The notes below the pieces were generated by a model. The model did not search any database. It saw only the letters and a program-made list of their open reading frames with translations, and was not told the DNA's origin. A DNA stretch of 17,853 nt from Acanthamoeba lenticulata (Eukaryota; Discosea; Longamoebia; Acanthamoebidae): positions 1-17,853 of the forward strand of contig NAVB01000217.1 of assembly GCA_002179805.1 (NCBI GenBank), written 5' to 3'. Positions 1-17,853 of this stretch are shown in pieces (the stretch's first letter is position 1; each line of letters opens with the position of its first letter). The translations under genes were made by a program, and so were the position numbers.

Positions 1-527
1 TTTTACAAGGCTTACAAAATTTAAAAAACCAACTTGTACAACAAAAGAATGGGTTTAGCAAATCACCAAAAATGCAACACAAGTACAAAGTATGTTTTAA
101 TGCTAAAAAGAGAAAATGATTTGAAAAAACTGATTTTGAAGGAGGAAAAAATATATATAATTTTAAAAAACCAAATTTTATGTTTATGTAAATGTTTCAA
201 ACTTTTTTGCAAAATATTGGGACTTATTATGATCAATTTGGGTGATTTTTGTTTTTTTAATTTTAAAAAATTATATAATATATCATTACTTATCTTTGCA
301 AGGTTTTTTTGTAGTTATTTTGAATATTTGTTATGTTGTATCAACATGGTAAAAGCAAGATAAAATATTTTTTTTTTTTAAATCCAAACTTATATTTGTT
401 GCCTTCGAAGTAGTTTCGAGGTTGGTGCTATAATAATTCAATAATATTTTATTTTTATTACTTGACAAGAAGAAAAAGTTGATGATGTTTTAAAATTTAA
501 TGTGGATAAAAACTAAATCTATCAGCA
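1..527. other. A+T-rich block without a credible gene
   Basis: This stretch is dominated by A and T, with many short T and A runs, unlike the G+C-rich genes that follow. The only longer open frame (34-363, +) encodes a Lys/Ile/Leu/Phe/Cys-rich product of the kind expected from chance reading of A+T-rich DNA, and I see no domain in it. The composition changes abruptly at the tRNA-Pro gene at 528. It could be an ordinary intergenic spacer, a decayed mobile element next to a tRNA gene, or an organelle-derived insertion. The sequence alone does not decide. Confidence 0.6.
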
Positions 528-598
528 GGCGCCGTAGTTAAGTGGTAAAATTCTCGCTTAGGGTGCGAGAGGCCCCGGTTCGATTCCGGGCGGCGCCC
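528..598 (+). tRNA. tRNA-Pro (anticodon AGG)
   Basis: A full cloverleaf can be drawn. The acceptor stem is GGCGCCG (528-534) with CGGCGCC (591-597) and discriminator C598. The anticodon stem is CTCGC/GCGAG with loop TTAGGGT, giving anticodon AGG at 560-562. The T stem is CCCGG/CCGGG around TTCGATT (579-585). The anticodon arm resembles that of typical eukaryotic tRNA-Pro. No intron is present. A Pol III terminator follows directly. Confidence 0.95.
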
Positions 599-603
599 CA
601 TTC

Positions 604-608
604 TTTTT
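604..608 (+). terminator. Pol III terminator of tRNA-Pro
   Basis: A run of five T residues lies 6 nt after the tRNA-Pro 3' end, the usual Pol III stop signal. Confidence 0.75.
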
Positions 609-696
609 GCTCACCATAAAATATCAGGTTACCCACCTAGTCTTTGTCCTCATTCGCAATGCGCAACCAAGAAAATAGAAATCAAAACGATGAGCG

Positions 697-713
697 AAAA
701 AAAAGAAAAAAAA
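697..713 (-). terminator. Pol III terminator of tRNA-Ser
   Basis: Two runs of eight A on the + strand (697-704 and 706-713) read as T8-C-T8 on the minus strand. They start 14 nt beyond the 3' end of tRNA-Ser, giving a strong double Pol III stop. Confidence 0.7.
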
Positions 714-726
714 GCAAAGACCAAGT

Positions 727-808
727 CGACAACGGCAGGATTTGAACCTGCGCGGGGAGACCCCAGTAGATTTCGAGTCTACCGCCTTAACCACTCGGCC
801 ACGTTGTC
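727..808 (-). tRNA. tRNA-Ser (anticodon CGA)
   Basis: On the minus strand this is an 82-nt class II tRNA. The acceptor stem is GACAACG/CGTTGTC with discriminator G (727). The D arm contains GCCGAGTGGTTAAGG. The anticodon loop is CTCGAAA with anticodon CGA (complement of 773-775). A long variable arm built on a TGGGG/CCCC-type stem identifies Ser, and the T loop is TTCAAAT. No intron is seen. It decodes UCG, a codon used often in the G+C-rich genes nearby. Confidence 0.95.
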
Positions 809-874
809 CGCCTATCGATTATAAGGAAAATAATTGATCCATACATATGAGTGATCGGCAGAAAAACACACAGC

Positions 875-880
875 AAAAAA
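875..880 (-). terminator. Pol III terminator of tRNA-Asn
   Basis: Six A on the + strand (T6 on the minus strand) lie 4 nt beyond the tRNA-Asn 3' end. Confidence 0.7.
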
Positions 881-883
881 CAA

Positions 884-956
884 CTCCCCGGGCAGGGTTC
901 GAACCTGCGACCTCACGGTTAACAGCCGTGCGCTCTACCAACTAAGCTACCGAGGA
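884..956 (-). tRNA. tRNA-Asn (anticodon GTT)
   Basis: On the minus strand the acceptor stem is TCCTCGG/CCGGGGA (one T-G pair) with discriminator G (884). The D loop is AGTTGGTA. The anticodon stem is CACGG/CCGTG with loop CTGTTAA, giving anticodon GTT (complement of 921-923). The T arm is GCAGG-TTCGAAC-CCTGC. It is 73 nt long with no intron. The methyltransferase gene on the same strand ends 132 bp upstream of it. Confidence 0.95.
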
Positions 957-1088
957 CCTCTGTAAGAAGTAGTTGTCGTCTTAAAACGATCTCGGCCGCC
1001 AGCAGCTTCGCCAAGGTAATGAGGACTTGCTTTGTCCCAGATTCTTGTTGTCTCATGCAGAGCTAGTTCACATTTTTTGTGCGCGTTC

Positions 1089-2240
1089 TTATGGGCGCAG
1101 CCTGGCGCGGACAAGTGTGTGCCACCCAAGCTCTCGCTCCAGTTGTCGAAAGGTACTTTCGTCCACATCCTGATAAACAATGTTAATTAGAGCTGAATTG
1201 AGAGCTGCTTATGCGGACACACCTTCCAGTAGTCCTCCTTGACATAGCAATGTTGCTTGTACTGGTCTATCTTCCACGGGAATATGTGATCCTTACTCAT
1301 ATTGATGATTTCAAAGCCCTCCAACAAGTGTCGAACTTCGTCAAAAGTGTAGGTAAAAGTCACGGGGCAGCCTGTATAAAGCTTGTGAGCATGGAGAACT
1401 GTTGTGAAACTGCTGCCTATGTGAACCTGTCTGGGCTTCTGAGTAGCGGGCAATGAGTTGATCCATCTTGGAAAAGTCCCACTCCCCAGTCTCCTTCATG
1501 AGGAAGAAGAGCTTAAAGCTCACCTTGGAGTAGAGCATTATCCTGCCCATGGGAGAAATAAGACCTTGTGGCGTGAGATTTACATGGTTGTGGGGCAGGT
1601 TGCACCTCAACTCCCCGGTTGGCTTGAGCAACCGCCTGATGTGGTGCACGACTCGCTCAGGGTGGGGCGTGTGGTGGATCACCCCAAAGGACCACACGAG
1701 ATCAAACTGCGCCGTTCCTTCTGGCAGAACCTGCAGGTTGTGAGCTGACGGATGGAGGAGGTTGGGCGTGAACGTTACCTTATCAAGATCTTCGGCATTG
1801 GCGTGTAGGAAGGTAGCTTCCAGGCCGTAGACCTCAAAGCGCTTGCGCGCGAGCTCAAGACTGGCTCGCGACAGTTCGACCACAGTCAGCTCGGCACCGT
1901 GGCGGGCGAAGTTCACACTCTCTGTGCCCAGCCCGCATCCTATCTCCAGAACCCTAGTACATTACATAAGAATAACCGATGCTCAATGGTACTATTTTAA
2001 GGTCTAGTTGACGTACCTTTTACCCTTCCACTCGGAGAAGGAGGCGAAGGCAGGGATATGCGGCTCCACAAAGTACTTTCGACGCTCGACTTCGTCGAAG
2101 TAGACACGGCTCCCTCGTTGCGCCTGAGAGTGAAATAGATTGCAAGGCCGCTTGTCCCAGTACTCCTCCACCAGCTCGATAGGAACACAAGCAAAGTCGG
2201 CCTTGGGGAGGCCGTCCTCGAGCGGCTTGAATTCGTCCAT
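1089..2240 (-). CDS. Class I SAM-dependent methyltransferase, 6 exons
   Basis: Exons (minus strand): 2240-2017, 1953-1779, 1730-1606, 1542-1427, 1371-1223, 1169-1089. Joined they give 289 aa with all phases consistent. Introns are 48-63 nt and GT-AG. Residues 76-87 ([12 protein letters not shown]) are the SAM-binding glycine loop, ELS at 101-103 is the acidic end of strand 2, and [17 protein letters not shown] (142-158) is the usual motif II/III region. The opening part (EYWDKRPCN, then [17 protein letters not shown]) and the ending ELGWHTLV recall a bacterial-type methyltransferase family, recalled from memory. The substrate is unknown. The start is the first Met (MDEF) after a possible 5' intron ending at 2282. 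Longer N-termini from an ATG at 2533 cannot be excluded, because upstream donors do not give a clean phase. The introns at 1543-1605 and 1731-1778 are multiples of three without stops. Confidence 0.88.
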
Positions 2241-2742
2241 CCTTCTCTCTTGCGCTCGTCGCAGCGCCTTTTCTTTTTGTTCTACAACAACAAGGTTATT
2301 CCATAATAAGATTTTGGCGCGGGCGCAGCTCACGGGCACCTTAAGGAGTTGGAGGCGGCAAGGCGTTGGCTCAGGTGGCCATGGCGTCGTGTGCGGGCTC
2401 GAGAACGTGGAACGTGGCCGGCCAAAACTGCCGCGCTGAGCCCGCAAGTCGCTTGCGGGCTGGTGGCGTTTCCCGGAATTTGCGGGAAGAAGGCGGTGGC
2501 GAGTAGCGCGTTTGCTTCATCATCGTGGAGCACCAGCCGTCTCGGTCACCATCAGACGTTTCTTTGTTCCCCTTCCGCCGAGTTCTCTTCAAGACTTTGC
2601 AGTACAGACGAATCAGACTAACTCACGAGACAGAGGTGAAGTGCACTAGGGCCCCATGAGCACAAGCAACGCACTCTCAACAACTTACAGCAAACTGCTG
2701 CACAGCTTCATCCACCGCAAAGAAAAGAACAAAGACAAAGAC
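2241..2742. promoter_or_regulatory. Divergent intergenic region, methyltransferase / CBS gene
   Basis: About 500 bp separate the two divergent start codons. It is G+C-rich and should hold both promoters and 5' UTRs. On the plus side, GTGAAG at 2637 to TTACAG at 2690 has the form of a short 5'-UTR intron that would remove the out-competing ATG at 2656. On the minus side, an acceptor-like GTTGTAG precedes 2282. I see no clear TATA box. Promoter function is inferred from position only. Confidence 0.45.
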
Positions 2743-4276
2743 ATGGGCAACGTGGAGTCCAGGCCAGAGGGCGGCACGGCGATAGGGACGTGGCACACCA
2801 AGGCGCTCCCCGCCACGGTGGCAACTGCAGGCCAACTCGAGGCCGTGAAAAACCTCATTGAGAGCCGCACGCTGCAGAACGTGGTGAGGCTCGACAAGCC
2901 ACTCATATCTCTGGCCGCTACAGACGACCTGCACGAGTGCTTCAACCGTCTGGTGGAGTATGGCATCCACGGAGCGCCCGTCTACGAAGAGGTAGAAGTT
3001 GACAACGGGCTGGGCGGACGCCATAAGGTAAAGAAGTGGATCGGCCTGCTCGACTGGCGCGACTTTGTTCACTACGTCGTGGGATTCATCGATGGCACCA
3101 ACGTACGCTCGACATTCTCGCCTTGCTTTCTTGCACCTCTAGTAAACCTTCCACATCAGGCAAGCTCGTTAGTGGATCAGTCCGCCAGGAGCCTGGCCAT
3201 CGACCACCCGATGATGCCCGTCTTCGAGGATGTCTCTCTTCTGTCTCTACTTGCTGGTACTTCCTCCTCTCTTGTTATGCTGCTCCATCTAACAAACGTT
3301 TAAACGTTTAAACCTGGCAAAGGCTTTGGCCAACATGGCGTGCGTCGTCGGCCCGTCGTGGCCAAGGACGAACACGGGGAGCGTATCCTGGGCATGGTTT
3401 CGCAGCTCGACGTTATCCGCTGGCTTTCACAGCAGCGCAAGGAGCTCGCCCCGGCCTTCAGCTCTCTCTCCATCGAGCACGTCGTTGCGGTCTCACCTCT
3501 CCTCCTCCTCGTTCTTCGTCCTCCTTCTTCTTCTTGTTTCTTCGCTGACCTCTGGCCGTGTTTGTTCTCCAACAACAGAAGGAACAAACTGACCCACGCT
3601 TCAGCAAGCTGCGGCAGGTGTGTAGCGTCATGCGGGACACGCTGATGTCCGACGTCCTGCGGCTACTCGACCAATCCAGCCTCAACGGCGTCAGCGGTAC
3701 GTCGCTCGCTCCCTTGCTCCGACGAGGAGCTAGCGACTTGGGCTCATGCATGCTGACGTACGTTGCGGGGCCTCCGGCCAAACCTGGCAGTGGTGGACCA
3801 CGAGGGCAAGCTGGTGGCCAACATCAGCGTGAGCGATCTGCAGTACGTGGTGGAACGCGACCTCGATAACCTCTTCACCACCGTCGAGCATTTCCTCACG
3901 CGCGTGCCCCGGCGCCCCCTCATCACCTGCCCGCCCACCGCGACTCTTGTACGACCGCACCTCCGTTATTGGCCTTTCCTTCTTCAGGCGGCGTTCTCAT
4001 CATCGTCGTCGTCCTCGTTGGGCAGATGGAGGTCATCGACAAGCTGGCACAGTCGGGCGTGCACCGGATCTACGTCGTCAACCAAGGTGCTGCTTCTGCG
4101 TCGTCCTCGCTGAAGGTGGTGACGATGAGGTGATCTAACGAACCGATGGAACTGGATGGCGCTGTGCAGACGAGGAGCCCATGGCAGTGATCACGCTGAC
4201 GGACGTCATCAATGCGGTGATGCTGCTCGCCACCCACGACCCCGGCCTCCTGACCACCGACACCAGCGCCATGTGA
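2743..4276 (+). CDS. Four-CBS-domain protein, AMPK-gamma/SNF4-like, probably N-myristoylated
   Basis: Exons: 2743-3102, 3160-3256, 3323-3480, 3579-3696, 3791-3948, 4026-4086, 4170-4276. They sum to 352 aa plus stop, near the length of AMPK gamma-1. Four CBS units make two Bateman modules, at roughly 50-120, 135-190, 215-265 and 285-340. The fourth has SGVHRIYVV (His310, Arg311) and ITLTD (Asp329), matching in position the nucleotide-contacting His-Arg and Asp of AMPK gamma. The second has RRRPVV in place of His-Arg. I start at MGNVESR because it fits the N-myristoyltransferase signal (Gly2, Ser6). A longer start at 2656 would hide it, and that ATG may lie in a 5'-UTR intron. The third CBS unit is short at its core (NGVSVVDHEGK). 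The donor of the intron ending at 3578 is ambiguous (3481 or 3490). It could also be an SDS23-type or free-standing CBS energy sensor. Confidence 0.88.
3298..3313. repeat. Tandem GTTTAAAC palindromes in a CBS-gene intron
   Basis: The 8-bp palindrome GTTTAAAC occurs twice back to back inside the intron at 3257-3322. It lies 9-24 nt before the acceptor, so it overlaps the likely branch-point region. Such an A+T-rich 8-mer is rare in this G+C-rich setting. Confidence 0.8.
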
Positions 4277-4387
4277 GCGCGATCATCTCGTCCTTGATCC
4301 TGCGCACGTCTGTACAGAAGTGGCCACACCTTCCGCCACACCCTTTTCACTGCTCGATCACGGCACGGGGGCAAAACAAGAGCTTCG

Positions 4388-5586
4388 CTACTTGGCCAAG
4401 TGCGGTTGGTTGCACAGATAGGGAGGGAGGAACCCGTGCGCATGCTTGACCTCGTGTAGCCGTCGCCGGAGGCGCCTGGCGCGCTGGCGCCCGTCCTCGT
4501 CTTCTTCTTTTTCTTTGGAGACGAGCCTCCACCAAGCGTAGTTGGCGGCGTAGTACCGACGCCACAGCCCCGGATCGAGCGCGGCCTGCGGCATGGAGGA
4601 GGACGAGGACGAGGAGGCTCGGCGCTGGGCCGCGCGAGGCCGCATCTGGCGGACGAGACAACGCTCCACTCCAGCCTGGGTCTCCTCTCCTTGTGGTGGT
4701 CCCTCCAGGCTGGTCCAGGTGCGCAGCATGGGCCAGGCCAGGGCCTGCCATAGGGATGGACTGATCGACACCACGTTCCACTACATAAAGAGGAGGTGAG
4801 CACATGAAGTAGAAGACATGCCGAAGCGACCACTCAGTCTCGTACCTGCCGACAGACCAAGCCGGCACAGACCACGTCCTCGGCCGACAGATACGTGAAG
4901 ATGACCATCAACAGCTCTGGAGGGAGTGGAGCTGAGGGCAAGGATGGTGGATCTTGCGCCCTGCTAGCATCGGTGCAGCTGGCTCGCTGTCTGGCCTCCC
5001 ACACAGGGCGCATCTCCTCGACATCCACACGGTCGTCATCAGCGTTGCTATTGTACACGGGGTCGAGCTGATTGCGCTTGCCCATGAGCCTCAGGTAGAT
5101 GTCCCCAACAGACTGCTTTGGACTGACGGTCCGGTTAGTTCATGAAGCCATCAGCGACTCCTTCTTGGGGGGGGGGCAGTGGGTACAGGCGGGCGGAGGG
5201 TGTCCAGGTGATAACAACGTGTTTCATCTCGATCTTGTTGACACAGCACTCACAGCTGCGAGGGTGAAAGGAGACATCATAGCCTCGATAAGACTTGGTT
5301 TTCAACTTGTACTGTTCTGCCTGCAACCCAATGGCCCAGTGAGCTCAGCTCTTTGGGATAATGTAGAGAAAGAGAAGCGTGCCATTGTGTGGACGATCTT
5401 GCGAAGAAAGGCGTTTCGTGGAGCCAGGGTCAAGTGCTGTGCCCCTGGTTGGCGGTGCGGCCCTGTGGTCACCAATTCCCGTAACAACTGGTCTACACTA
5501 AACAGGAAGCTCGAGTGTGAGCGCAATGCACACTCGAGGAACTCTACTCCTCTGAACTGCTGCTGCTGTTGATGGTGGTGCTGCAT
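4388..5586 (-). CDS. F-box protein with R3H-like upstream region; frame break near 5327
   Basis: The well-supported part is 5122-4846 joined to 4780-4388 (intron 4781-4845). From the internal Met MGKRNQLD (5085), an acidic segment leads to an F-box at about residues 52-91 (LPPELLMVIFTYLSAEDVV, CRQWN, SPSLW). A Ser-rich tract, an aromatic LWRRYYAANYAWW segment and a basic tail follow, with the stop at 4388-4390. This suggests an SCF ubiquitin-ligase substrate adaptor. Upstream, a GT-AG intron (5123-5186, with a CTAAC branch point) joins an exon ending at 5187 in phase. Further upstream, 5586-5330 encodes an R3H-like region (RNAFLRKIVHTMARF, with Arg-x3-His) starting MQHHHQQQQQ. No canonical intron links this frame to the one beginning near 5326; one missing base would. 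It may be one gene with a frameshift or sequence error, or two genes. An R3H-F-box fusion is unproven. Confidence 0.6.
5510..5538. repeat. Perfect 10-bp inverted repeat, 9-nt loop
   Basis: CTCGAGTGTG (5510-5519) and CACACTCGAG (5529-5538) are exact reverse complements. They lie within the R3H-like coding segment. They could form a small hairpin in the RNA. No known element matches. Confidence 0.7.
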
Positions 5587-5683
5587 CCTCTGTTATGTGT
5601 GCTTCACTTCTTCTGCCTCTGTTTCAATTCAAAGCTTTCTTTTTGTCTTTACTCTCCGATTGGTCACTTTTGTTTCATTATTT
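5587..5683 (-). promoter_or_regulatory. Short promoter region of the F-box/R3H gene
   Basis: Only 97 bp separate the stop of the ABC gene from the ATG at 5586 on the same strand. The stretch is T-rich on the + strand. It carries one CCAAT box on the minus strand (complement of 5659-5663), about 73 bp before the ATG. Promoter role is inferred from position and this motif. Confidence 0.4.
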
Positions 5684-7255
5684 TTATGTTTTTTGTGAGC
5701 CAATCGAGCCGAGGACGAGCTCTCGATGGGGCTGGGATAAAAACGTACGCGCAAAGTCTGCCGCGTTGTATTGGAGGGGCGCCTCGAGGCCCACGCTGGC
5801 GAAGTAGGGCAACACGCCAGCGGCGCTGCCCGAGTAGACGATGTAGCCGCCCTCGGCCAGCAAGAGGACCTGGTTGAACCTGTTGTCGTTGGACATCGTG
5901 AAAACCATGACTTATTTTAATACGAATTTTGATTAAACAAATATTAAATATTAAATATTAAATTTGAAAAGCATCATGGGGCCGTAACGGTTTGGGGAAG
6001 AGACATACATCATGAACATGGCCGACGAGGGCTGGTGGATGGTGGTCACGACCGTGTGGCCGCTCTTGGCCAGCGTCTTGAGCGACACGATGAGGCCGAG
6101 CGATGTCGCGGCGTCGAGGCCCGATGTGGGCTCGTCGAGGAAGATCAGGGACGGGTTGCTCACGATCTCTGTCGCGATGTTGGTTCGCTTCCGCTCACCT
6201 CCCGACACACCTCTCTGCACCGTTCATGACCACCATGATCAGCGTCATCGTCTTCTCCATCACGAGGCCAGGCCGGAGAGCGAAATCTCGTCGACATGTG
6301 TGCTGGAAACGTACCACCCAACCACCGCCGACGATGGTGTTGGAGCAGCGCTGGAGGCCCAGCTCGGTGAGCACGTCTTCGACCTTCTCGCGCTTCTCCT
6401 TGAGGGACATCGACTTGGGCAGCTTGAGGTAGGCCGCGTCGGTGACGGTATCGCGCACGGTGATGCTCGGGAAGAAGATGTCGTCCTGCAGGACGTAGGC
6501 CATGCGGCGCTTGAACCGACGGCCGCGCACCTCCTCGCCATTGACCAGGACCTGGCCCGTCAGGTTGGACTTGATGCGCCGCGCCAGAACGTTGAGCAGC
6601 GTGGTCTGTGTTCACGCCAGGCCCGCCAAAGGCAACCCAGTGTGAGTAAGCGGCGGCCAAAAGAACGAAGCGGCCGCGGAATGGCGCCAAAAAGAAGAAC
6701 GAAAAGCGAAGGGGCAAGGTCCTGACCTTGCCGGAGCCGGTGGGTCCCATGATGGCAATGATCTCTCCGGCGCCCACCCGGCCGGAAATGTTGTTGAGGA
6801 TGGGCACCACCTGCAGACCACCAAGCGGGTGCGTGGTGAGGACCGTGGCTCAGAGCACAAGAAAGCGGAAACACGCCGTGTACCTTTTTTTTCTTGAGCA
6901 TGGTGGTGATCGAGGCGGGTATGGGCAGACGGAAGAGCAGCTTCAGAAGGAAGTTGGAGGGCGGTAGAGGGTAAACCACCGAGTAGTTGATGTTGCGCCA
7001 CTCGAGGTTGAGCTTGAGCTTGGGCGACTGCTTGGTGAACGGGACGGGCTGGTGGATCTTGGCATACTTGGACACGACGGCCGCTACGTCGGGGTCCACC
7101 GCGTCGTCATCGTAGGCCACCTCGCTGTCGAGTGCCTTGCCCTTCTCCGCGGCTATTTGCTCCTTGGCCAGCTGGTGCATCTGCACGCCATTGTTTTCCT
7201 CCTCATGCCCCAAGTCGGTGTCCGACGAGCTCGACGAGTGCTCCGAGTCGCTCAT
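5684..7255 (-). CDS. ABCG-type ABC ATPase domain, transmembrane domain missing
   Basis: Exons (minus strand): 7255-6884, 6810-6727, 6605-6315, 6214-6009, 5879-5684, giving 382 aa. The N-terminus is acidic and Ser-rich ([12 protein letters not shown]). The nucleotide-binding domain is intact: Walker A GPTGSGKT (146-153), Q-loop Gln192, signature VSGGERKR (252-259), Walker B IFLDEP (273-278), D-loop, and H-loop His309. [15 protein letters not shown] and the post-H-loop [14 protein letters not shown] are typical of White/ABCG transporters, which pump lipids or xenobiotics. Such half-transporters continue with about 300 aa of membrane domain. Here the frame instead ends 24 codons after NAADF, and the F-box gene starts 97 bp further on. 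A strong donor, GTACGT at 5748, sits at that point but no membrane-domain exon follows in the window. It may be a soluble ATPase, a truncated gene or a pseudogene. The intron at 5880-6008 is A+T-rich. Confidence 0.82.
5939..5959. repeat. Three tandem AAATATT heptamers
   Basis: Three exact copies of a 7-bp unit lie inside the A+T-rich intron 5880-6008 of the ABC gene. This is a simple microsatellite with no function implied. Confidence 0.85.
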
Positions 7256-7622
7256 CTCCTTGTGCGTACGCCTCGTGGCTAGCTTGTGCGGGAAGCTACG
7301 CAGCGCAGCTGTGTGCCGTGTGGCGTGAGACTCGGACAAATCAAACGTCTCAAGGGCAGTTTGGTTACATTGGCCATTCGTGGTACAACCGTCGGAAGTC
7401 CCCGCGCGGGCACTAGAGCATTGGTGGGGCCTTTTACACAACGCACAGCAAATATACTTCTAACCACCGAACGCGCTCACTTTCAGCTCTGGCGAATGGC
7501 CAGGTAAAGGCGGCCAGATCGCTCGGACTTTTTCCCTCTGCGCATCTTTCGCATGACTCTTCACAAACTGTCCTTTGCTGGAAAGAGTGAATTGCAAGAA
7601 AGAAAAGTAAAAGGGAAGGGAA
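7256..7622. promoter_or_regulatory. Divergent promoter region, ABC gene / DHX34
   Basis: About 367 bp lie between the two divergent start codons. Two ATTGG pentamers (7369-7373 and 7420-7424, CCAAT on the minus strand) and a purine-rich tract just before the DHX34 ATG are visible. The minus-strand frame continues upstream of 7255 to an ATG at 7441. That stretch looks non-coding in composition, so I place the start at MSDSE. Regulatory role is inferred from position. Confidence 0.4.
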
Positions 7623-10600
7623 ATGTGGCCTTTTCCCAAACACGAAATGGAGCGGAATGAGCAGGGGAGGGACAAGGAGGAGGTGGAGGACCGGCCGAAG
7701 CGGCGCCGCTCGCGCTCGCCCAGAGACAGAGGCAGGAAGCGCTCGAGGTCGTCTGAGCGAGCCGGCAGCGGCCGAGACGACGCGACACGCACGCGCGACC
7801 ACGATTCACGCCGACGTCGTTCTCGATCGAGGGAGAGAACCCAGGAAAGGCGGCACCACCACTCTCACCAACACTCCCACAGCGCCTCACGATCGCGGCC
7901 AAGAGAGCAGGACCTCGAGGCACGCCAGCAGTCCAAGCGGCACCGCGGCAGCAGCACAGACCGAGACCGCGGCCAGGACGAGGGGCGGGGGGAACCTACG
8001 CAAGAGCACGCCCGAAGCCGGCATGGGCACGACGTGCAGCAGCAGCAGTACAACGCGGCTGCCAGCGGCCAAAGCCCTGCCCTGGGTGTTGCTGGTGCCA
8101 CCAGCACCGAACCCTCGGGGGGCCGCGGGGGAGACGAGTGGCACCGGGCGTGGGACGACCTGCTGTTCTCGCCAAAGGACCTCTACCCCAAAGGCTCCAA
8201 GGCCTACCTCGACTTTCGAGGTGCGCTCGAGAACTTCAACCACCACTTAGGTAAACCATTTATATTCATCCTCTCCCTCGTCAGAGTTCTACCGCAAGTA
8301 CAAGCAGTTCGCCAGCAAGCAAGCCGAAGCGAGTGGCAAAGGAAATGATCAGAAGAAGAAAAAGGAGAGCAAGGAAAAGAAGGAGAAGAAGCGCGGGTCC
8401 TCGGGAGAAGAGGATCAGCACGGTGCCTCGACCGATGGCGCCACCAACCCGCTGGGCCTTCCCTCTCCCTACGACCAACGCTATCGGTACGCGCGCGCGC
8501 GCTTGATCTCGGCAGCCCGAGCACCGACGGGCATGTCGACACACGATGAGCTCACCGCGTTCACATGTGGACGTGCAGGGTCAACTTTGCCGTGTTGAGC
8601 GCCAGGGGGCCCGTCATGCTCAACGACCCGAGCTTCCAGGAGGTCAAGAAGGCCCTCTATCTCTACGAGGACTTTCGGCAGAAGGAAAAGGTGCCGTGCC
8701 TCTTGTTCCTCCTCGCCGTCGTACTCGTGGTCGTCATCATCGTCAATGCCGCGGTGAGATTCCTCACTCTCAGCTCTGCGCGCAGTTTGCCAAAATCCTC
8801 AAAATCCAGAGCGAGCGAGCGGCCTTGCCCATCGCCCAGTACCGCCAGGAGATCGTGGACGCCGTGGCGCGTCATCAGATCACGCTCGTCGCTGGTGACA
8901 CCGGCTGCGGCGTACGCTTCCGCCCCTCCTCGCCTCCCAACCCTGTGTCCTCTCTGGCTTGATGCCCGAGACGCTCAGCCTCGCGTGTGGTGCACAGAAA
9001 TCGACGCAGGTGTGCCAGTACCTGCTGGCGGCCGGGATTCGCAAGATCGGGTGCACGCAGCCGCGACGCATCGCCGCCATGTCCCTCTGCAAGCGCGTCG
9101 CCTTTGAGACACTCAATGTGCGTCCGCCTACTTGGGCGGGGAGAGGCACACGTCATCAAGAGGAGCTCTTCTCACACGCGCTTGCTAAATCGGTGTGGAA
9201 TGTCAGGAATACGGCTCGCGCATCGCATACCAGATCCGGTTCGAGTCATCCAAGACGCTCGCCACCGATGTGGTCTTTCTCACCGAGGGCGTCCTCCTGC
9301 GGTGCGCCCGTTTCACCCAATCGGGTTTCAAACAAGACTTGCCTCACGCGCTCAACGCACACACGTACGTGCACATGCGCAGACAACTGGCGGGCGACCC
9401 GCTGCTGATGGACTACAACGTGCTGATCATGGATGAAGTCCACGAACGGCACGTCCACGCCGACTTCCTGCTGGGCCTCCTGCGCGAGCTCGTCGTCAAG
9501 CGAACCGACCTCAAGCTCGGTAGCCCTTTGCCTCTTTCGCTTGTCCCCGTGCAACTGGAGGTCATTAACTTGATTCATGAACACACGGCCTTGCGTCGCC
9601 TTTTGTGTCGTCTCGGCAGTGCTGATGTCGGCGACCATCAATCTGGAGCTCTTCTCGGCCGCCTTCCCGGGGGCGCCCGTCATCCGGGTGCGTGACGGGC
9701 GCCCAAGCGTCCCTCCTCGGACGGGCGTGCTGCTGCCTGGCGGGCTCACGTGTGGCGTGTTCAGGTGCCCGGCCGCATGTATCCGGTCGACGTCGAGTAC
9801 ATCCCGCTGCCCGAGGACCAGCTCCTGTACAAGGACATTGCCAAGGCCACCGCCGAGACGCCCACCTCCACCTCTGAAGCGCCCGCCCCCGACGGTTTGT
9901 CGATTTTCGTTAAACTCTTATTTTTACTTTTGAGTTATTCTGAAAGTTTCAATTTATTGATTTTATTTCGAAATGAATTGGCTATTGATTGAGAGGGGGG
10001 GGGGCGTACAGTGGCGCGACCGCTGCCCAAGGCAGGCGGGCAGATCAACCCGAAGCCCTACCTGGCCATCATGCAGCGCATCGACGAGCAGTTCCCGCAG
10101 GAGGAGCGAGGCGACCTGCTGGTACCGGCCTCCACTCCCGCCCCCGCCTCCCTCTCTTCCACACGAAACGGCCCGGCCCTCGCGGACTTGGAGCCAATGG
10201 AGGGCCTCAGGGTCGGCTGACGCTCGGCGGAGAACGCCCCGGGTGCAGATCTTTGTGAGCGGCATGAATGACATCATGTGCCTGGCTGAGGAGATGCGCG
10301 CCTACGCGGCGACGACGCGGCGATGGATCATCCTCCCGCTCCACTCGGCCCTGTCCGTCGACGACCAGGAGAAGGTATTTGACCCGGTCGAGGAGGGCGT
10401 CCGCAAGTGCATCATCTCCACCAACATCGCCGAGACCGCCGTCACCATCAACGGCATCCGCTTCGTCATCGACTCTGGTCGCGCACGCTCTTCTCTTCTG
10501 CTGTGTCTCAGCTGACGTCAGCATGACGCACATGCTGACGTCAGCGGCTTGTCCGTGTGTGTGGGCGAGGGCAACAGGTAAGGTGAAGGAGATGGGCTAC

Positions 10601-13600
10601 GACGCAGAGACCAAGATGTCCTCGCTCCAGAGCTTTTGGATCTCGCGCGCGTCGGCCGAGCAGCGCAAGGGCCGCGCCGGGCGCACGGGCCCGGGCGTGT
10701 GCTACCGCCTCTACTCGCAGGAGATCTACAACTACCTTCTGCCCTACTCGGTCCCCGAGATCCAGCGCATCCCGCTCGAGTCGGTACGCACAGCCAAAGA
10801 GGCATTTTTGGGATTCCGTTGCTGCATTCCGGAAGCTCACGCTCGGCTCGGCGCAGATCATACTGCAGATGATCGCGATGGGGGTGCGCGACCCGCGCGA
10901 GTTCCAGTTTATCGAGCGGCCATCTGATGACAAACTTGAGGCCTCCCTCTTCAACCTCCAGCAGCATCAAGGTGAACTCCTTCTCAACTTCTTCTCTTCT
11001 TCCTCCTCTGGTCTCAATAGAGGCTGACGTGGAATGCTTGGAATGTTGCTTCCCACAGCCATCACAGTCGGGCGGGACATGACCTACACGTTGACGCCTC
11101 TGGGCGGGATGCTCGCCCAGCTGCCGGTGGACATTCCCGTGGGCAAGATGCTCGTCCTGGGCTCCGTACCGATCCGCCTCCTCTCCTCTCCGGCGCTGCA
11201 CTCCACGCGTCGTCCGCTCACGCGTGAGCACCTCTGCTCGTGTGCGTCGCGTTTGTGGGGGAACGACAGCTGTTCCACATCTTGGACCCAGTGCTGACCA
11301 TGGCGGCCGCGCTCACGGTCCAGTCGCCCTTTGTCATGCGCGGCAACTTTGATTCCACCGTACGGTCCCGACTCACCCCGCGTCGGCACTCGCCTCTCTC
11401 TTGGGCCTAAACATGTTTTGATGATCTGTTGCGCGAGAAGGCCCGGCATGAGTTTGACTCGCCGCACGGCGATGCTTTCACGCTCCTCAACCTGTTCGAC
11501 CAGTGGCTCAAGATCAAGACCACCAAGCCTCGCGTACGGGCAGGCCCCCAACCACACACATAGACACACACACGCGTGCGTGCGCACGCACTCAACGTTG
11601 ATGGTGGTTGTGGTCGTGGTGGTGATGGTGGGTATGCGCGGGAGGCAGGCGTCGCGGGGCTGGTGCAAGGCGCACTCTGTAGAGGAGCAGCGCATGTACG
11701 AGATCGCTAAGCTCAAGGGCCAGTTCCGCGACATTCTCCTCGACAACGGCCTCCTCGCCCCCGACGACGACGACGACGGTGGGTATGATGACGACAACGT
11801 TGGTGGCGATGGCCGTCGTCGCGGCGGTGGTGGCCGTCATCACCAGGCACCGGCGGCTGGAGGTGGGCGGTGGGAGGAGCAGCGCGACAGGCGACGGCGA
11901 GACGTGGCCCGCAAGCGTCGCCAGCTTCGCCTGCTCCAACGCGAGCGCGAGAGCGCACGGAAGCGCCGCGTCCTCCGGTTCGACGAAGAGCTCGAACAGC
12001 AGCAACAGCAGCAACAGCAGCAGCCCGAAGGCGGCGAGAACAAGGCGGCCCCCGCTGCGGAGAAGGGCGAGGGCGAGGACGAGCTGGACATCCGGGAGCT
12101 GGACTTTATGCTGACACACGACCTGGACAAGCTGAGCCGCGACTCGGCGCGCGAGCTCTCGCTCCACGACGTCAACCTCCTCAAGGTCATCCTCGCCTCC
12201 GGTACACGAGTTCTTCCTCGCGCCGACAACAGTTTGATCGTCCTTGCTGACCTCCTTGTCATCATCAACGTTAACGTCCTCGTGAACGGGGGAGCAGGGC
12301 TGTACCCGAACGTGGCGGTGGCGGACGAGCTCAACGCGGTGAGGCGGGACAGCGACCAGCTGTTCCACACGCGGTGGAAGGAGTTCATGGTGCTGCACCC
12401 GACCAGCGTGTTCGGGGGCGTGATCGATGCGGCGCAGCAGATCACGACGGCCGACCTGCTCGCCTACGTGTCGCTCCTGGAGACCAACAAGCCCTACGTC
12501 GTCAACGTCACGCGCTGCCCCGCCCTCCACATCCTCCTCCTCTTTGCCAACACCAGTACGTCATTTCTCCCTTTTCCAAATGATTTTGAAATTGTTTTGA
12601 GATATGTTTCGAAATTCTAAACCTGTTTGGGCGCTCTCCAGTCGACACGACGGCGGACTGCACGCGGCTGGCCATCGACAACTGGCTCGAGATCGAGCTC
12701 AGCGGCGCCAAGTACGCTCCCTCTCAACCCGGCCCTGTGCCGCATGGCTCACACCTCGTGATGGCGTCAATCGCTGGACCGCCCACCCCAGGATGGGCGA
12801 GCGGGTGCTGCTGGTGATCCACCAGCTGCGGCTGCTCCTCCACAACTTCCTCCACCAGAAGCTGGCCAACAAGCGCAGGCGCCCGAAGCACCGCCGCAAC
12901 GACGCCCGGACCGGGGAGGCCGAGGGCGAGGAAGAGGAAGCGCTCGTGCCAGACGACCTGCGCGACACGCTCGAGGCCCAGGGCCTCGCTGACGACGATG
13001 GCGACCCGACGCTGGCGCAGCCGCCGCCGCCCAATGTGCCGCCGGTCATCGCCCGCATCCACCGAGAGAGCCGCGACCACAGCATCACCTGCGACGAGGA
13101 CCAGCTCGCCGGTATCGTCATTTATTTTTATATTATTGATAATAATAATAATTTTTATTCTATTTGGTTAATTATATAATTTATATATTCGAATATCTAT
13201 AAGAAATTATATAATTAAAAACATTTTTTAAATGTGCATTTTCTATTTATTAGGCAAGCTGGCCGAGTTTTTGGACACGGCCATCGCGTTCAAGATGAGC
13301 CGCATCAAGCCCTCCGAATTTCACGCGATGTTCTTCACCGTGGCCAGCGCCACCACGGCCGATGAGGCCCAGGCCGCCAGCCGGGCCAAGGACGCCATGG
13401 AGGAGCTCGAGGGTGAGCACGTCCCCTTCCCCTTTCCCTTCACGCTCAGCCGCGGGCGCGTGCCGCGCTCACACGAGCTGATGTGGGCGCGCGTGTGGCA
13501 CACGTGCAGCGATCCGGGCGAGGGAGCACGCCGACTTTGAGTCCACGAAGGGCGGGTGGCGGGTCAACGCCTACCTGCGCTACGGGAGCCTCCGCCAGCA

Positions 13601-14063
13601 CAAAACCATCGCGGCGGGCTTCACCGGCACCCACCTCCGCAAACACTGGAAGTTCGGCCCCCAGTCCCTCTCCCTTCCCCCTTCTTCCTTGTTGTTGGGC
13701 GACGATGCGATGCGCTGATCGGCGGCGTGCGATGATCGCAGGTGCGAGACGTGCGGCGAGAATTTCATATTCGGGCTGGAGGACATCGCCGCCCACCAGA
13801 CCCAGTGCGGCGCCGGCAGCGCGCGGCAGCGGCTCGACGCGATGGCCCACCAGGTCGACGCCGAGGCCAACGTGGCGGCGGCACGTCGCCTGGTCCAGGC
13901 CTCCGAGTCGAAAGGCAAGGAAAAGCCCACCGACGGACCCGAGGAACTGCCTCTCGATAGCGACCGCGGGTGGCTGTGTGATGTGTGCCAAAAGCGCTTC
14001 GCTATGACCCCCATCCAGATCCTCAAGCACAAGAGGAGCCACGCAGCTGCTTTGTCCTCTTGA
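7623..14063 (+). CDS. DHX34: DHX34-like DEAH-box RNA helicase, 23 exons, 1458 aa
   Basis: Exons: 7623-8220, 8285-8486, 8579-8690, 8786-8911, 8998-9117, 9207-9301, 9383-9519, 9620-9687, 9765-9894, 10012-10121, 10249-10477, 10578-10783, 10857-10971, 11059-11165, 11270-11359, 11438-11533, 11649-12201, 12298-12555, 12642-12711, 12792-13111, 13254-13412, 13510-13663, 13742-14063. All phases agree. The N-terminal ~130 residues are rich in RS/RD/RE. The helicase core has GDTGCGKST (341-349), DEVH (435-438), SAT (467-469) and [10 protein letters not shown] (671-680), then HA2/OB regions (QIILQM-type and [12 protein letters not shown]). A basic stretch with nine Gln (about 954-962) follows, then [10 protein letters not shown]. 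Two zinc fingers close the protein: C1353/C1356/H1370/C1374 and C1431/C1434/H1448/H1452. The order and many motifs match human DHX34, a nonsense-mediated decay factor that acts with UPF1. The second finger has the same C-x2-C-x13-H-x3-H spacing. ATP-dependent RNA remodelling is expected. Confidence 0.95.
9895..10011 (+). other. A+T-rich intron of DHX34 ending in a G10 run
   Basis: This intron (GTTTGT...TACAG) is A+T-rich over its first 95 nt and then switches to ten consecutive G (9995-10004) just before the acceptor. Its flanks are strongly G+C-rich exons. Frame and family conservation require its removal. Confidence 0.85.
10511..10545. repeat. Perfect 15-bp inverted repeat with two TGACGTCA sites
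   Basis: GCTGACGTCAGCATG (10511-10525) and CATGCTGACGTCAGC (10531-10545) are exact reverse complements around ACGCA. Each arm contains the 12-bp palindrome GCTGACGTCAGC, whose core TGACGTCA is the classic CRE/bZIP binding site. It lies in the DHX34 intron 10478-10577. The same 12-mer recurs at 17782-17793. Confidence 0.9.
13112..13253 (+). other. Longest A+T-rich DHX34 intron
   Basis: This 142-nt intron (GTATCG...TTATTAG) is almost entirely A and T after its first 8 nt, including an ATA/ATT-rich microsatellite around 13136-13152. Exons on both sides are G+C-rich. Splicing here restores the frame (GCC-G / GC-AAG). Confidence 0.88.
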
Positions 14064-14120
14064 CTTTTGTTTCCATGGACAACAAGAGAGACAACAAAAG
14101 CGAAGGAAGGACTTTACCAA

Positions 14121-16475
14121 TCAAAAAACACCTGCTCGCACAAGGTCCAGGGCCTGGTCAACGGACTCCTCGAGGCTGTGGCCCGGGATGCTGCGGAAGT
14201 ACTCGGGCCGACACTGCGGCATGCGCTCCGGGTTGTTGATCCACGTGTTCCACAAGGCCGACACCTTCTTGTAGGTGTTGTCGATGAAGAAGTGCGGCCG
14301 CCCAGTGAGCATGGCTGTGATGGTGCCGTGCAGGCGATCGGAGACCGACGCTCGGCCGGCCGTGATTGCCTTGTTGGCCCAATCCGTGTAGAACATTGCC
14401 CGCCACTCGGGATCGAGACTCTTCTCATTGAAGTGTGTCGAAGGGTAATGAGGCGCCATGGGTTGCCAATCGTGCATGAACACTCCAAGTTGATCTCGGG
14501 TCTTGGCCTCAGCGTAGCGCTTCAGCGCCACCTTGTTGCTCTCCTTGTCCAAGCGCGCCTGCAGGCTCACGTTGAAGGGCGCCTCGGTGTAAAGCGGCAT
14601 GAGGGGTCCAAGAACAAAAGCCATGTCCGGCACGAGATGCACTCGATCGGGTGGGATGCCAGCCCCCAAAAACTGGTCATACGTAGGCTGGTCTCGTGCG
14701 CACACGTGGCAGTCAGAGTGGTTGGCGATGTAAGACAGCCCATCAACGGCGTTGAACTCTGGGGAGAAGTGGCTGCTCTGCGGAAGGATGATCAAGCGAT
14801 TGTTGGGGTACTGCGCGCACATGTATCTGCGGAATTCATCATGTTTGGGGTACAGGTTCCCGATGTTGCCGCCTCCATGAAGCAAGATGACCGTATTGGG
14901 CGTAATCTTGGCCAAAGGTGCAGCGGCGTTGTCAGGGGTGACTGCCTGGGGAAGAAGCCCCACTTGAGACAAAAAGCGCAGCTCCCCCAGAGTGATGACG
15001 CTATCTCCGAGGTTTTGATGGGACGGCGTGTCGAGCAGAACCACGGGGGAGCCAGGAGGCACGAGCTCCAAGAGAGAGCGCAGCACACGGTCATGCAAGG
15101 CTTGGAGACATCCTCGTCGTAGCGCTTCGCACTGGACAGGGCCAAGCTCGATGCTCCTGGACAAGATGTCCAGCTGGCGACTGTCCAGTTTTGCTAAGCT
15201 GCCATCGCGCGGCAAAGGAGTCGATGGCTTGCTCCTGTGTTCGGGGCACAGGGTTTGGTGGTCTGACCGCTCGTTGTGGTGGGGGGCGATGGTGAAGGAC
15301 TGGCTGACGACATTGGTGCTCGCGGCAAGGAGCACCACGATGGCAGCCACAACCGCCACCGCGGTCAGGCCCATCACAAGCCTCGAATTGAGTTGAGAGC
15401 TCTGCTGAGCGGGGGAGACCTGGTGCGATGTGTTCTTGAAGTAGTTGTAGAGCATGGCACCACACACGGTCATCGCGATGCCCAGCACGCCGACAAGGTC
15501 CACACTCGTCCGGAACCAAAAGATCGAGAGCAGGATGATGACGACCCTCTTGAGCACGTTGAGCGTCGAGTGCGTGATGATCGACAAGCGTCCCAGCAGG
15601 GCAAACGACGCGCTGTTGTACGCAAAGTAAAAGAGCGCCATGCCTACCACTTGACCGGCCATGCGGCTCGCGCTCTCCTGGACCAAGAGGAGGCCAGCTC
15701 CCATGACGTCCACGAACTGGGACAGCAACTGGCTGTCCTCCACGACCAGCACGATGGGCGTCATGGTCACGGCCCCGATAAGCGACGTGAGAAAGAAGAG
15801 CTCCGTGCTGTCGGGCCGCTCCTTGTCCTGCTTGACGGCCTCTGTTTCGAGTTGCTTGGTGTAGAGATTGCGCAAGCAGAAGCACAGGTTGCTGACCAGG
15901 GCAAAGAGCACCGACAATCCGATGTGGCTTTGGTGCGTGCCTGTGCCGGAAGAGGAGGAGGAGAAGGAATAGAGGGCGATGCCGCCAGCCATGGGACCAA
16001 GGCATGCGAGGTAGCGGCTCCAGCCCAGCCAGCCGTTGCGGTTCCCGTGGAGCCATGCCAGCGCGACTGCCGTGAGCGGCTCCAGAGCCTTGACCACATG
16101 CGCGAGGGGCACGCTGCCCAAGCAAATGCTGACGTTGGTGGCAATCGTGGCCAGCAGGTGGAGCACGGTCACGAGCCAGAACGTGCGGCTCCAGAGCAGT
16201 TCATTGTGTCTCGTTTTCTTCTTGGTCGGCCCGCCCGGCGAAGACGAGGGCGAGGCCGATGAACTGACGCCAGCAGCGGGCGGCGCAACCAGAAAAGTGA
16301 GTCCTTGCTGAAGGAGGGCAAAGATGGCCCCGCCGGCGAGCTGGAGACAGGTGAGCAGGAAGAGGAGATTGGGCCACTGGTCGGCCACCTCCTTGGCCAG
16401 CACGTTGGACACGCCTCCGCTAACCCACCAACTCGCCACCAAGACCACCGTCCACAATCCCGACGTCATCTTCAA
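14121..16475 (-). CDS. Phosphate/PEP-translocator-like transporter fused to polysaccharide pyruvyltransferase
   Basis: This is one uninterrupted 784-aa frame. Residues 1-350 are a drug/metabolite-transporter fold of the triose-phosphate translocator family, with about ten hydrophobic segments. HVVKALEP (126-133) carries the family His/Lys, and THSTLNVLKR (301-310) ends in the conserved Lys-Arg that binds phosphate. YN at 286-287 resembles the PEP-translocator branch (from memory). An extra membrane segment follows at about 366-386. Residues 470-784 are a polysaccharide pyruvyltransferase: HQNLGDSVI (486-494), LHGGGNIGNLY (532-542), RDQPTYDQF (594-602), PDMAF (616-620), SVSDRLHGTI (710-719) and IDNTYKK (731-737). 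The enzyme class moves enolpyruvyl from PEP to a glycan as a pyruvate ketal. Sequons at N585 (NHS) and N635 (NVS) fit a lumenal location. I infer Golgi PEP import coupled to glycan pyruvylation. The absence of introns is unlike most neighbours. It is convergent with DHX34, only 57 bp apart. Confidence 0.92.
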   Translation of the reverse strand: MKMTSGLWTVVLVASWWVSGGVSNVLAKEVADQWPNLLFLLTCLQLAGGAIFALLQQGLTFLVAPPAAGVSSSASPSSSPGGPTKKKTRHNELLWSRTFWLVTVLHLLATIATNVSICLGSVPLAHVVKALEPLTAVALAWLHGNRNGWLGWSRYLACLGPMAGGIALYSFSSSSSGTGTHQSHIGLSVLFALVSNLCFCLRNLYTKQLETEAVKQDKERPDSTELFFLTSLIGAVTMTPIVLVVEDSQLLSQFVDVMGAGLLLVQESASRMAGQVVGMALFYFAYNSASFALLGRLSIITHSTLNVLKRVVIILLSIFWFRTSVDLVGVLGIAMTVCGAMLYNYFKNTSHQVSPAQQSSQLNSRLVMGLTAVAVVAAIVVLLAASTNVVSQSFTIAPHHNERSDHQTLCPEHRSKPSTPLPRDGSLAKLDSRQLDILSRSIELGPVQCEALRRGCLQALHDRVLRSLLELVPPGSPVVLLDTPSHQNLGDSVITLGELRFLSQVGLLPQAVTPDNAAAPLAKITPNTVILLHGGGNIGNLYPKHDEFRRYMCAQYPNNRLIILPQSSHFSPEFNAVDGLSYIANHSDCHVCARDQPTYDQFLGAGIPPDRVHLVPDMAFVLGPLMPLYTEAPFNVSLQARLDKESNKVALKRYAEAKTRDQLGVFMHDWQPMAPHYPSTHFNEKSLDPEWRAMFYTDWANKAITAGRASVSDRLHGTITAMLTGRPHFFIDNTYKKVSALWNTWINNPERMPQCRPEYFRSIPGHSLEESVDQALDLVRAGVF

Positions 16476-16616
16476 GGACCCACACCCTCACCTCCTTCGT
16501 CCTGTGTCGTCCTCTTCAGGATTTGGGCAAGACTTTTTGTGTCGACGTTGCGGTGTAACTCCCTTGTAACGTAAAACTCCGGCAAGCGTCATCACCCGTG
16601 GAACACTGTGACGTGC
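16476..16616 (-). promoter_or_regulatory. Intergenic region upstream of the transporter-pyruvyltransferase gene
   Basis: This is 141 bp between the stop of the ankyrin gene and the ATG of the fusion gene, both on the minus strand. It must contain the 3' end of one and the promoter of the other. I see no TATA or CCAAT box. Function is assigned by position only. Confidence 0.35.
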
Positions 16617-17782
16617 TCAAGCGCGACGAGAACAGAGCTGGCCGCAGGTTTTGCAGTAGCCAAAGAGAAGACGGGCCGGGAGGTGGACCGACATGACGCC
16701 CGCGCAGTGGGGACAGTCCCGCCAGGCCTCGGCCAGCACCCGTGGCCCGCGCTTGCCGGCCGCCTTTTTTCGCTCGTCCTCCGCTTGTCGCCGCCGCTCC
16801 TGCGCTGTATTGTTGTTGTTGTCGTCGTCATTGTGGTGGCCGGCGTGAGCAGGAGGAGGAGGAGGAGGAGTCCAGAGGCTCGAGCATCATTATCATCATG
16901 TACCGAGGGCCGCCTGTTCGGCGAGCTCCTGCGTGATGGTGTCGAGGTTCTTGCCCATCACGTTCGTCCAGTAGCGATTGGCCCCGGCCGCCAAGAGGAA
17001 GCGCACGATCTCGTCGCGCTTGCGCCACGCCGCGAGCAGCAGCGCGGTCCACTGCAGTTGGAAAACAAAACGAAAGCGTAAGAGATGCGTGCGTTTATGC
17101 GCACGCGGCGTGTCATCATGATGCAGGGCCAGCGACCACACAACAAGAAGGGTCTTCGTCCGCACCTTGCCGTCAAACGAGACGAGTTCAAGGTCGGCGC
17201 CCATCTCGTCTACGAGGACGCGTACGGCCGCAACGTGGCCCTCGCGCGCGGCGAGCAAGAGAGGCGTGAAGCCCCAAAAGGGCTCTCGGGTGTCGACGAG
17301 CTCGTCCAGGCTGTGCGGCCTGGTGAGCACGTCGCTCCGGTTCCACAGCCGCAGCGCGTCGGTCCAGACCCTCTCGCCGCCGTCCTCTCTGACATCGGCG
17401 TCGCTGCTGGCGGTGGCGAGGGACTCAAAGGCGTGGCAAATGGCGCGTATGACCTCCACGTCGCCCATCTCGGCGGCTTTGCACAGCGGCGGGATGCCCT
17501 TGCCTGTCCCCAGTATGTTGAATAATTTAAGAAATGAATGAAAATTACAAATAAATATGAAATATTGAAAATAAATATGAAAAATGACCATAGGAGAGGC
17601 GGGGACCTCGGTCGCTGAGCGAAGCGCCTCGGAAGATGAGCTCGCGGATCACGCGGAGCAGCCGCAGGCGCACGGCGATGCTGAGTGCCGAGAGCGACGT
17701 ATAGGTCCCGGTCCCGCAGATGGCGTCGGGGTCGGCTCCCCGGGCCAGCAGCGCGACGGCTCCCTGCAGCAGGCCGTACACG
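16617..17782 (-). CDS. Ankyrin-repeat protein with C-terminal zinc ribbon (5' part outside window)
   Basis: Exons seen (minus strand): 17782-17607, 17503-17166, 17051-16904, 16804-16617, all phase-consistent. The gene begins beyond the right edge. An A+T-rich intron runs from 17783 to at least 17853. Ankyrin-type helices are clear: VALLARGADPDAI, PPLCKAAEMGDVEVIRAI, TPLLLAAREGHVAAVRVLV, TALLLAAWRKRDEIVRFLL followed by AAGAN. After the repeats, an Arg/Lys/Glu-rich linker leads to a zinc-ribbon-like end with CPHC and CKTC pairs plus a last Cys (CPHCAGVMSV, YCKTCGQLC). Ankyrins mediate protein contacts and the Cys pairs should bind zinc. The specific role is unknown. The intron 17052-17165 is 114 nt with no in-frame stop, so retention would insert 38 residues between two repeats. 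Confidence 0.82.
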
Positions 17783-17853
17783 CTGACGTCAGCAACTATT
17801 TTTTAATATTTATTATATTTATTATTTAAAAAGAATTGAATTAAATAAACAAA
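17783..17853 (-). other. A+T-rich intron running off the right edge
   Basis: The sequence turns almost pure A+T from about 17796 to the end. On the minus strand it ends in TGACGTCAG just before the ankyrin exon, so it reads as the 3' part of an intron. Its acceptor overlaps the third copy of GCTGACGTCAGC. Confidence 0.65.

Follow-up and report, generated by a model that had tools for sequence, protein, structure and literature searches.

The minus strand of a 17,853-nucleotide stretch of Acanthamoeba lenticulata DNA (contig NAVB01000217.1, positions 1 to 17,853; this whole stretch is hereafter the window) carries a gene for one continuous protein of 782 residues, in which a carrier of the phosphate-translocator family is followed by an additional helix, predicted to lie in the membrane, and by a pyruvyltransferase of the Pvg1 type. 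We consider it likely that this protein is a self-feeding glycan pyruvylation machine of a Golgi-like membrane. Both domain families are known, and their fusion appears to be undescribed in the literature searched, where no paper paired 'polysaccharide pyruvyl transferase' with 'triose-phosphate transporter'; this search covered no eukaryotic domain-architecture database. A 2019 review of pyruvyltransferases describes its networks as limited to proteins of 250-600 residues (PMC6801904), so that a protein of 782 residues, such as this fusion, would have dropped out of them.

A conserved fusion of carrier and enzyme

The complete coding frame (14121..16469, minus strand; protein P0001) opens with an ATG at 16469 and is uninterrupted up to its stop codon, which ends at 14121. 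An earlier sequence-only reading had given the span as 14121..16475; the single frame through both halves stands, but its end had to be corrected, as the codon at 16475 is a TTG that lies in frame, two codons (6 nt) upstream of the first ATG. In 200 order-1 simulations with the composition of the fused gene the longest open run averaged 314 codons and reached at most 712, against 784 observed. Given that the DNA is GC-rich and simulated runs extend to 712 codons, frame length alone is weak evidence and we dropped it as an argument. Instead, homology, the GC content at codon positions 1/2/3 of the fused gene (59/44/78%), a second fused locus in the same genome and two fused proteins from outside it together render chance or a local assembly error untenable. 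With the single frame, the same evidence bears out the earlier claim that transporter and enzyme lie in one chain. Two genes read as one were considered and ruled out by the conserved frame and domain order. To judge from the frame, one transcript would run through both halves.

The second intact fused frame was found on contig C1252 of the 48.5 Mb draft assembly (1825 contigs), and its protein is 87% identical to the window copy. Its neighbourhood differs: outside the gene just short stretches of the DNA compared (C1252:8500-31900) match the window. A decayed copy of both halves with several stops and frameshifts (C141:5172-7266) and an N-terminal relic (C462:32678-32930) are also present; the fused-gene family duplicates and decays. 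A search of 5.8 billion proteins yielded two relatives among 7998 candidates scored, both of them fused: P0002 (827 residues, 43% identity, 99% coverage), with a longer N-terminus than P0001, and P0003 (713 residues, 45% identity), which begins within the carrier. An enzyme-only fragment from a 1116-base contig, P0005, falls in the same group as the fused enzymes. With the carrier alone, 7995 candidates were scored and a single, partial relative (P0004) was retrieved, from a database that seems poor in eukaryotes. Scans of viral contigs confirmed no relative among 9 stretches for the entire protein, 25 for the alignment of the enzyme and 53 for that of the carrier, a weak test based on 1-6 short patterns; mimivirus is reported to have a putative pyruvyl transferase and a polysaccharide that is pyruvylated (PMC9614988).

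The C-terminal half (residues 471-782; 14124..15059) had been read from the first as a polysaccharide pyruvyltransferase, which is substantiated by a Pfam match, by Pvg1 residues and by the Pvg1 fold. The match to PS_pyruv_trans (PF04230) covers residues 486-731 (14277-15014) with an E-value of 3.6e-23 and 83.3 bits against a cut-off of 25.3. The predicted model matches the two-domain fold of Schizosaccharomyces pombe Pvg1p (PDB 5ax7) over 315 residues, and seven functional Pvg1 residues, His168 among them, are identical. By alignment, Asp489 (15003..15005) is the equivalent of Asp106, the proposed catalytic residue (PMC4872226); Arg592 (14694..14696) and Arg712-Leu713-His714 (14328..14336) correspond to Arg217 and Arg337-Leu338-His339, for which PEP (phosphoenolpyruvate) binding is reported (PMC4872226, PMC10435577), and Lys735 (14265..14267) to PEP-binding Lys361 (PMC10435577). 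The enzyme half is thus predicted to transfer pyruvate from PEP to a sugar. No stand-alone pyruvyltransferase was seen in the genome.

A tree of 72 enzymes (the 5 fused ones, Pvg1, 26 database proteins and 40 of 80 bacterial loci, every second one after L083 had been dropped for its long open frame) places the fused enzymes in one clade (support 100/100) with a long stem and without a strongly supported sister. Bacterial ketal-pyruvyltransferases of the EpsO, CsaB and WbbZ types differ in standing alone, the stop-to-stop frame being at most 498 codons in 79 of the 80 bacterial loci. The eightieth, L083, from a Bradyrhizobium metagenome-assembled genome, has a pyruvyltransferase-like match in a 1045-codon stop-to-stop frame open at one end, and is perhaps another fusion.

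In fission yeast Pvg1p is described as Golgi-resident and dependent on Pet1p and Pet2p for PEP (PMC4872226, PMC10435577), so that what the sequence-only reading had said of separate Pvg1 and Pet1 genes, both needed, is in print and extends to Pet2p. Unlike the fused enzyme, Pvg1p is a separate protein, of 401 residues (PMC10435577), with its own N-terminal membrane helix; in the fusion, anchoring would fall to the extra helix of the carrier. Pet1p and Pet2p are putative Golgi PEP transporters of the TPT family, encoded by separate genes. They are comparable to the fused carrier by their reported role of supplying PEP to a pyruvyltransferase (PMC4872226, PMC10435577).

The carrier half and its cargo

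The N-terminal half (residues 1-345; 15435..16469), with ten helices predicted from the helix pattern of the model, matches Pfam TPT (PF03151) at residues 8-342 (15444-16448; E 7.1e-39, 134.4 bits against a cut-off of 30), which upholds its initial placement in the triose-phosphate/PEP-translocator family. The sole solved transporter matched by sequence, and likewise with a profile search, was the Galdieria triose-phosphate translocator 5y78, with 71 of 225 aligned residues identical. In what we take to be the numbering of GsTPT2, the alignment shows K204, T188, R266, Y339, K362 and R363 kept in the carrier half, with Phe at F263. The Lys/Lys/Arg phosphate clamp typical of plastid phosphate translocators (pPTs) is present as Lys127 (16089..16091; GsTPT2 Lys204) and Lys307-Arg308 (15546..15551; GsTPT2 Lys362-Arg363), along with the pocket Tyr, Tyr284; the pocket of the A. 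thaliana TPT (AtTPT) is described in PMC6981301. The protein shares the Pfam TPT domain and this clamp with plastid phosphate translocators (TPT, PPT and GPT; 5y78/5y79 from Galdieria), but differs in its Thr for His185, its extra helix, its fused enzyme and its lack of room for an N-terminal plastid targeting region, the first hydrophobic segment lying at residues 7-25 or 1-19 on two scales.

Six pocket positions are reported to shape the specificity of phosphate translocators (PMC6981301), and here the pocket points to a phosphate ester as cargo and leaves PEP open. Several of its features weigh against PEP. According to the same source, the bulk of Phe at AtTPT position 262 is thought to exclude PEP from plant TPT, and a small residue there accompanies the transport of PEP by carriers of apicoplasts and diatoms (PMC6981301); the fused carrier has Phe197 at this position, not a small residue. 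The pocket His (GsTPT2 His185/AtTPT His184) is replaced by Thr108. Diatom TPT2 carries PEP despite a Phe at the 262 position (PMC6981301), implying that a small residue there is no strict criterion, but in TPT2 both His and Tyr are changed, whereas in the fused carrier His alone is. Given the Thr108 replacement, the protein may work like a pPT without being filed as one.

TPT matches were found at nine places in the genome outside the fused loci, five of them over the cut-off. The residue pair in transmembrane helix 9 (TM9), read by eye in seven of the nine (all but C597 and C161), is KG (3), KV (2), RK (1; register uncertain in this case, C1140) or KL (1). The fused genes have KR, and these seven places include no further carrier of that type. 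The two remaining places (C597:627-950 and C161:29168-29488) have near-identical weak matches below the cut-off, with open frames unlike those of other carriers, and possibly come from another organism.

These observations bear on the proposal that the carrier moves some other phosphate ester (triose phosphate or 3-phosphoglycerate) or phosphate alone, serving mainly for phosphate exit and as an anchor while PEP enters by another carrier. Phe197 and the unchanged pocket Tyr agree with such a role; however, every intact copy found has the carrier fused to a PEP-type transferase, a candidate for the other, KR-type carrier is missing from the places read, and the exchange of His185 for the smaller Thr should enlarge the pocket. 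We regard this alternative as unlikely, and favour a carrier that would move PEP.

Topology, linker and competing readings

Beyond the ten-helix carrier, an extra eleventh hydrophobic segment at residues 364-384 (15318..15380) is supported by Kyte-Doolittle analysis, the model and flanking charges. It forms the highest Kyte-Doolittle peak of the fused protein (2.88), is modelled as a helix at 353-390, and is present in all four fused frames that span the region, each time with a more positive net charge on the flank facing the carrier. Both ends of the mouse CMP-sialic acid transporter, a relative with ten helices, are described as lying on the same side, thought to be cytosolic (PMC6508934), and Pvg1 is described as acting in the lumen as a type II protein (PMC4872226). 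With an odd number of helices, eleven, the fused enzyme would sit in the lumen. A glycosylation sequon at N633, common to the five group members (P0001, C1252, P0002, P0003 and P0005) and found in none of 26 other enzyme rows, is weakly suggestive of a lumenal enzyme domain.

The predicted helix pattern is ten plus one; the carrier has a predicted local distance difference test score (pLDDT) mostly below 60 and, folded alone, a mean of 41.6. The low confidence of these models, which leaves the ten helices and the orientation as predictions, also counts against the proposed topology. In the alignment behind the first fold (A1), P0004 was placed in the wrong half. No transporter stood in the list of a VIA-align structure comparison, which hardly probed the carrier half. 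A further adverse point is that the extra helix is just 14% identical to P0002, the least conserved part of the protein, and the linker 33%, which leaves room for cleavage; the weak conservation of the helix would also fit a plain anchor.

The linker itself (residues 385-470; 15060..15317) keeps its frame among the fused sequences while its sequence is loosely conserved. Its standing as the second-least conserved part relative to P0002, after the extra helix, and a pLDDT below 50 at residues 384-416 would suit a chain that is cut or alternatively spliced here, its halves then acting separately like Pet1 and Pvg1 in fission yeast. Against this, the frame of the linker is kept in four sequences (the window copy, C1252, P0002 and P0003), both linker indels between the window copy and C1252 are multiples of three, and a free carrier would have no evident use for the extra helix, so that we judge separation of the halves distinctly improbable.

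TPT-like carriers share a Pfam family with some nucleotide-sugar transporters. This kinship and the Golgi setting would accommodate a nucleotide-sugar transporter supplying the acceptor or its precursor. In nucleotide-sugar transporters the TM9 Lys is presumably not followed by Arg (subfamily names KT, KV/A/G and KD), a rule on which the literature search gave nothing. The Lys/Lys/Arg clamp and the KR pair belong to the phosphate-translocator type, none of the seven other TPT-family genes read has the pair, and the only solved transporter matched is a triose-phosphate translocator; we rejected a nucleotide-sugar carrier on these grounds as highly unlikely. An assembly or gene-prediction artefact, which a draft in 1825 contigs might invite, is a negligible prospect and in our view refuted by the further fused copies: there are two intact loci, whose neighbourhoods differ, as well as a fused pseudogene and, from other sources, the fused proteins P0002 and P0003.

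A possible closed loop and its paralogues

In the mechanism that we favour, the carrier would bring in PEP from the cytosol and send out inorganic phosphate from the lumen in exchange, and the eleventh helix would give the chain one membrane crossing more than a ten-helix carrier has, placing the enzyme in the lumen, the side where yeast Pvg1 works. There, with the delivered PEP as donor, the enzyme would attach pyruvate to a terminal sugar, likely forming a 4,6-ketal on galactose or a residue like it, and the phosphate that it releases would be the counter-substrate of the carrier. pPT carriers are reported to swap phosphate esters for phosphate (PMC6981301), and ketal-pyruvyltransferases to convert PEP and a sugar to a pyruvylated sugar and phosphate (PMC10435577); as the by-product of the one is the counter-substrate of the other across the membrane, one molecule could run PEP in and phosphate out.

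Between the window gene and C1252 the synonymous divergence is alike in the carrier and enzyme halves (0.24 and 0.20), as expected if the gene was duplicated as one. The ratio of nonsynonymous to synonymous divergence (dN/dS) for the whole gene is 0.32, the carrier having 0.16 and the enzyme 0.46. Within the latter, residues 601-782, where most PEP-binding positions lie, have a dN/dS of 0.23, as against a nearly free 0.91 for residues 471-600 (14670-15059); Asp489 and Arg592 lie in this fast-evolving part and yet are unchanged between the paralogues. Replacement of Pvg1 His168 is reported to widen acceptor use (PMC4872226), and its equivalent is His in both paralogues and Pro in P0002 and P0003. 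The fast N-terminal part of the enzyme and the variation at this position suggest, without proving, a change of acceptor. We tentatively propose, with slightly less than even confidence, that importer and cargo-consuming transferase form one molecule with a closed loop, PEP entering, pyruvate passing onto a glycan and phosphate leaving by the same carrier, and that the two paralogues share this donor machinery and diverge as if towards different acceptors.

C1252, P0002 and P0003 share the position of an in-frame insert, which follows residue 319 (15510..15512 in the window gene, which is without it). The insert in C1252 (L027 near 2870-2944) is 75 nt long, starts with GT and ends with AG, and is probably an intron read through; the two database proteins may be over-long for the same reason. 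Directly downstream of the gene on C1252 lies a frame judged by eye to be protein-kinase-like (L027:4730-5974, minus strand). Eight neighbouring frames of the window scanned with Pfam gave three matches: ankyrin repeats (16896-17591, minus), a methyltransferase domain (1341-1916, minus) and a helicase C-terminal domain (9973-10515, plus).

The cargo of TPT-like carriers of the secretory pathway is hard to assign, and the fusion acts as a natural 'Rosetta stone' that links this one with an enzyme of a PEP-using type. From the fusion one would expect an amoeba to have pyruvylated glycans, of which none was described among the matches listed in the literature search. Being a single gene, it allows PEP import, topology and pyruvylation to be tested jointly, and it might serve as a one-step tool to install pyruvylation in other cells. 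The fusion supports the view, until now based on genetics in fission yeast, that PEP enters the Golgi through such carriers and, if our interpretation is true, the uptake of the substrate would be physically joined to its use.
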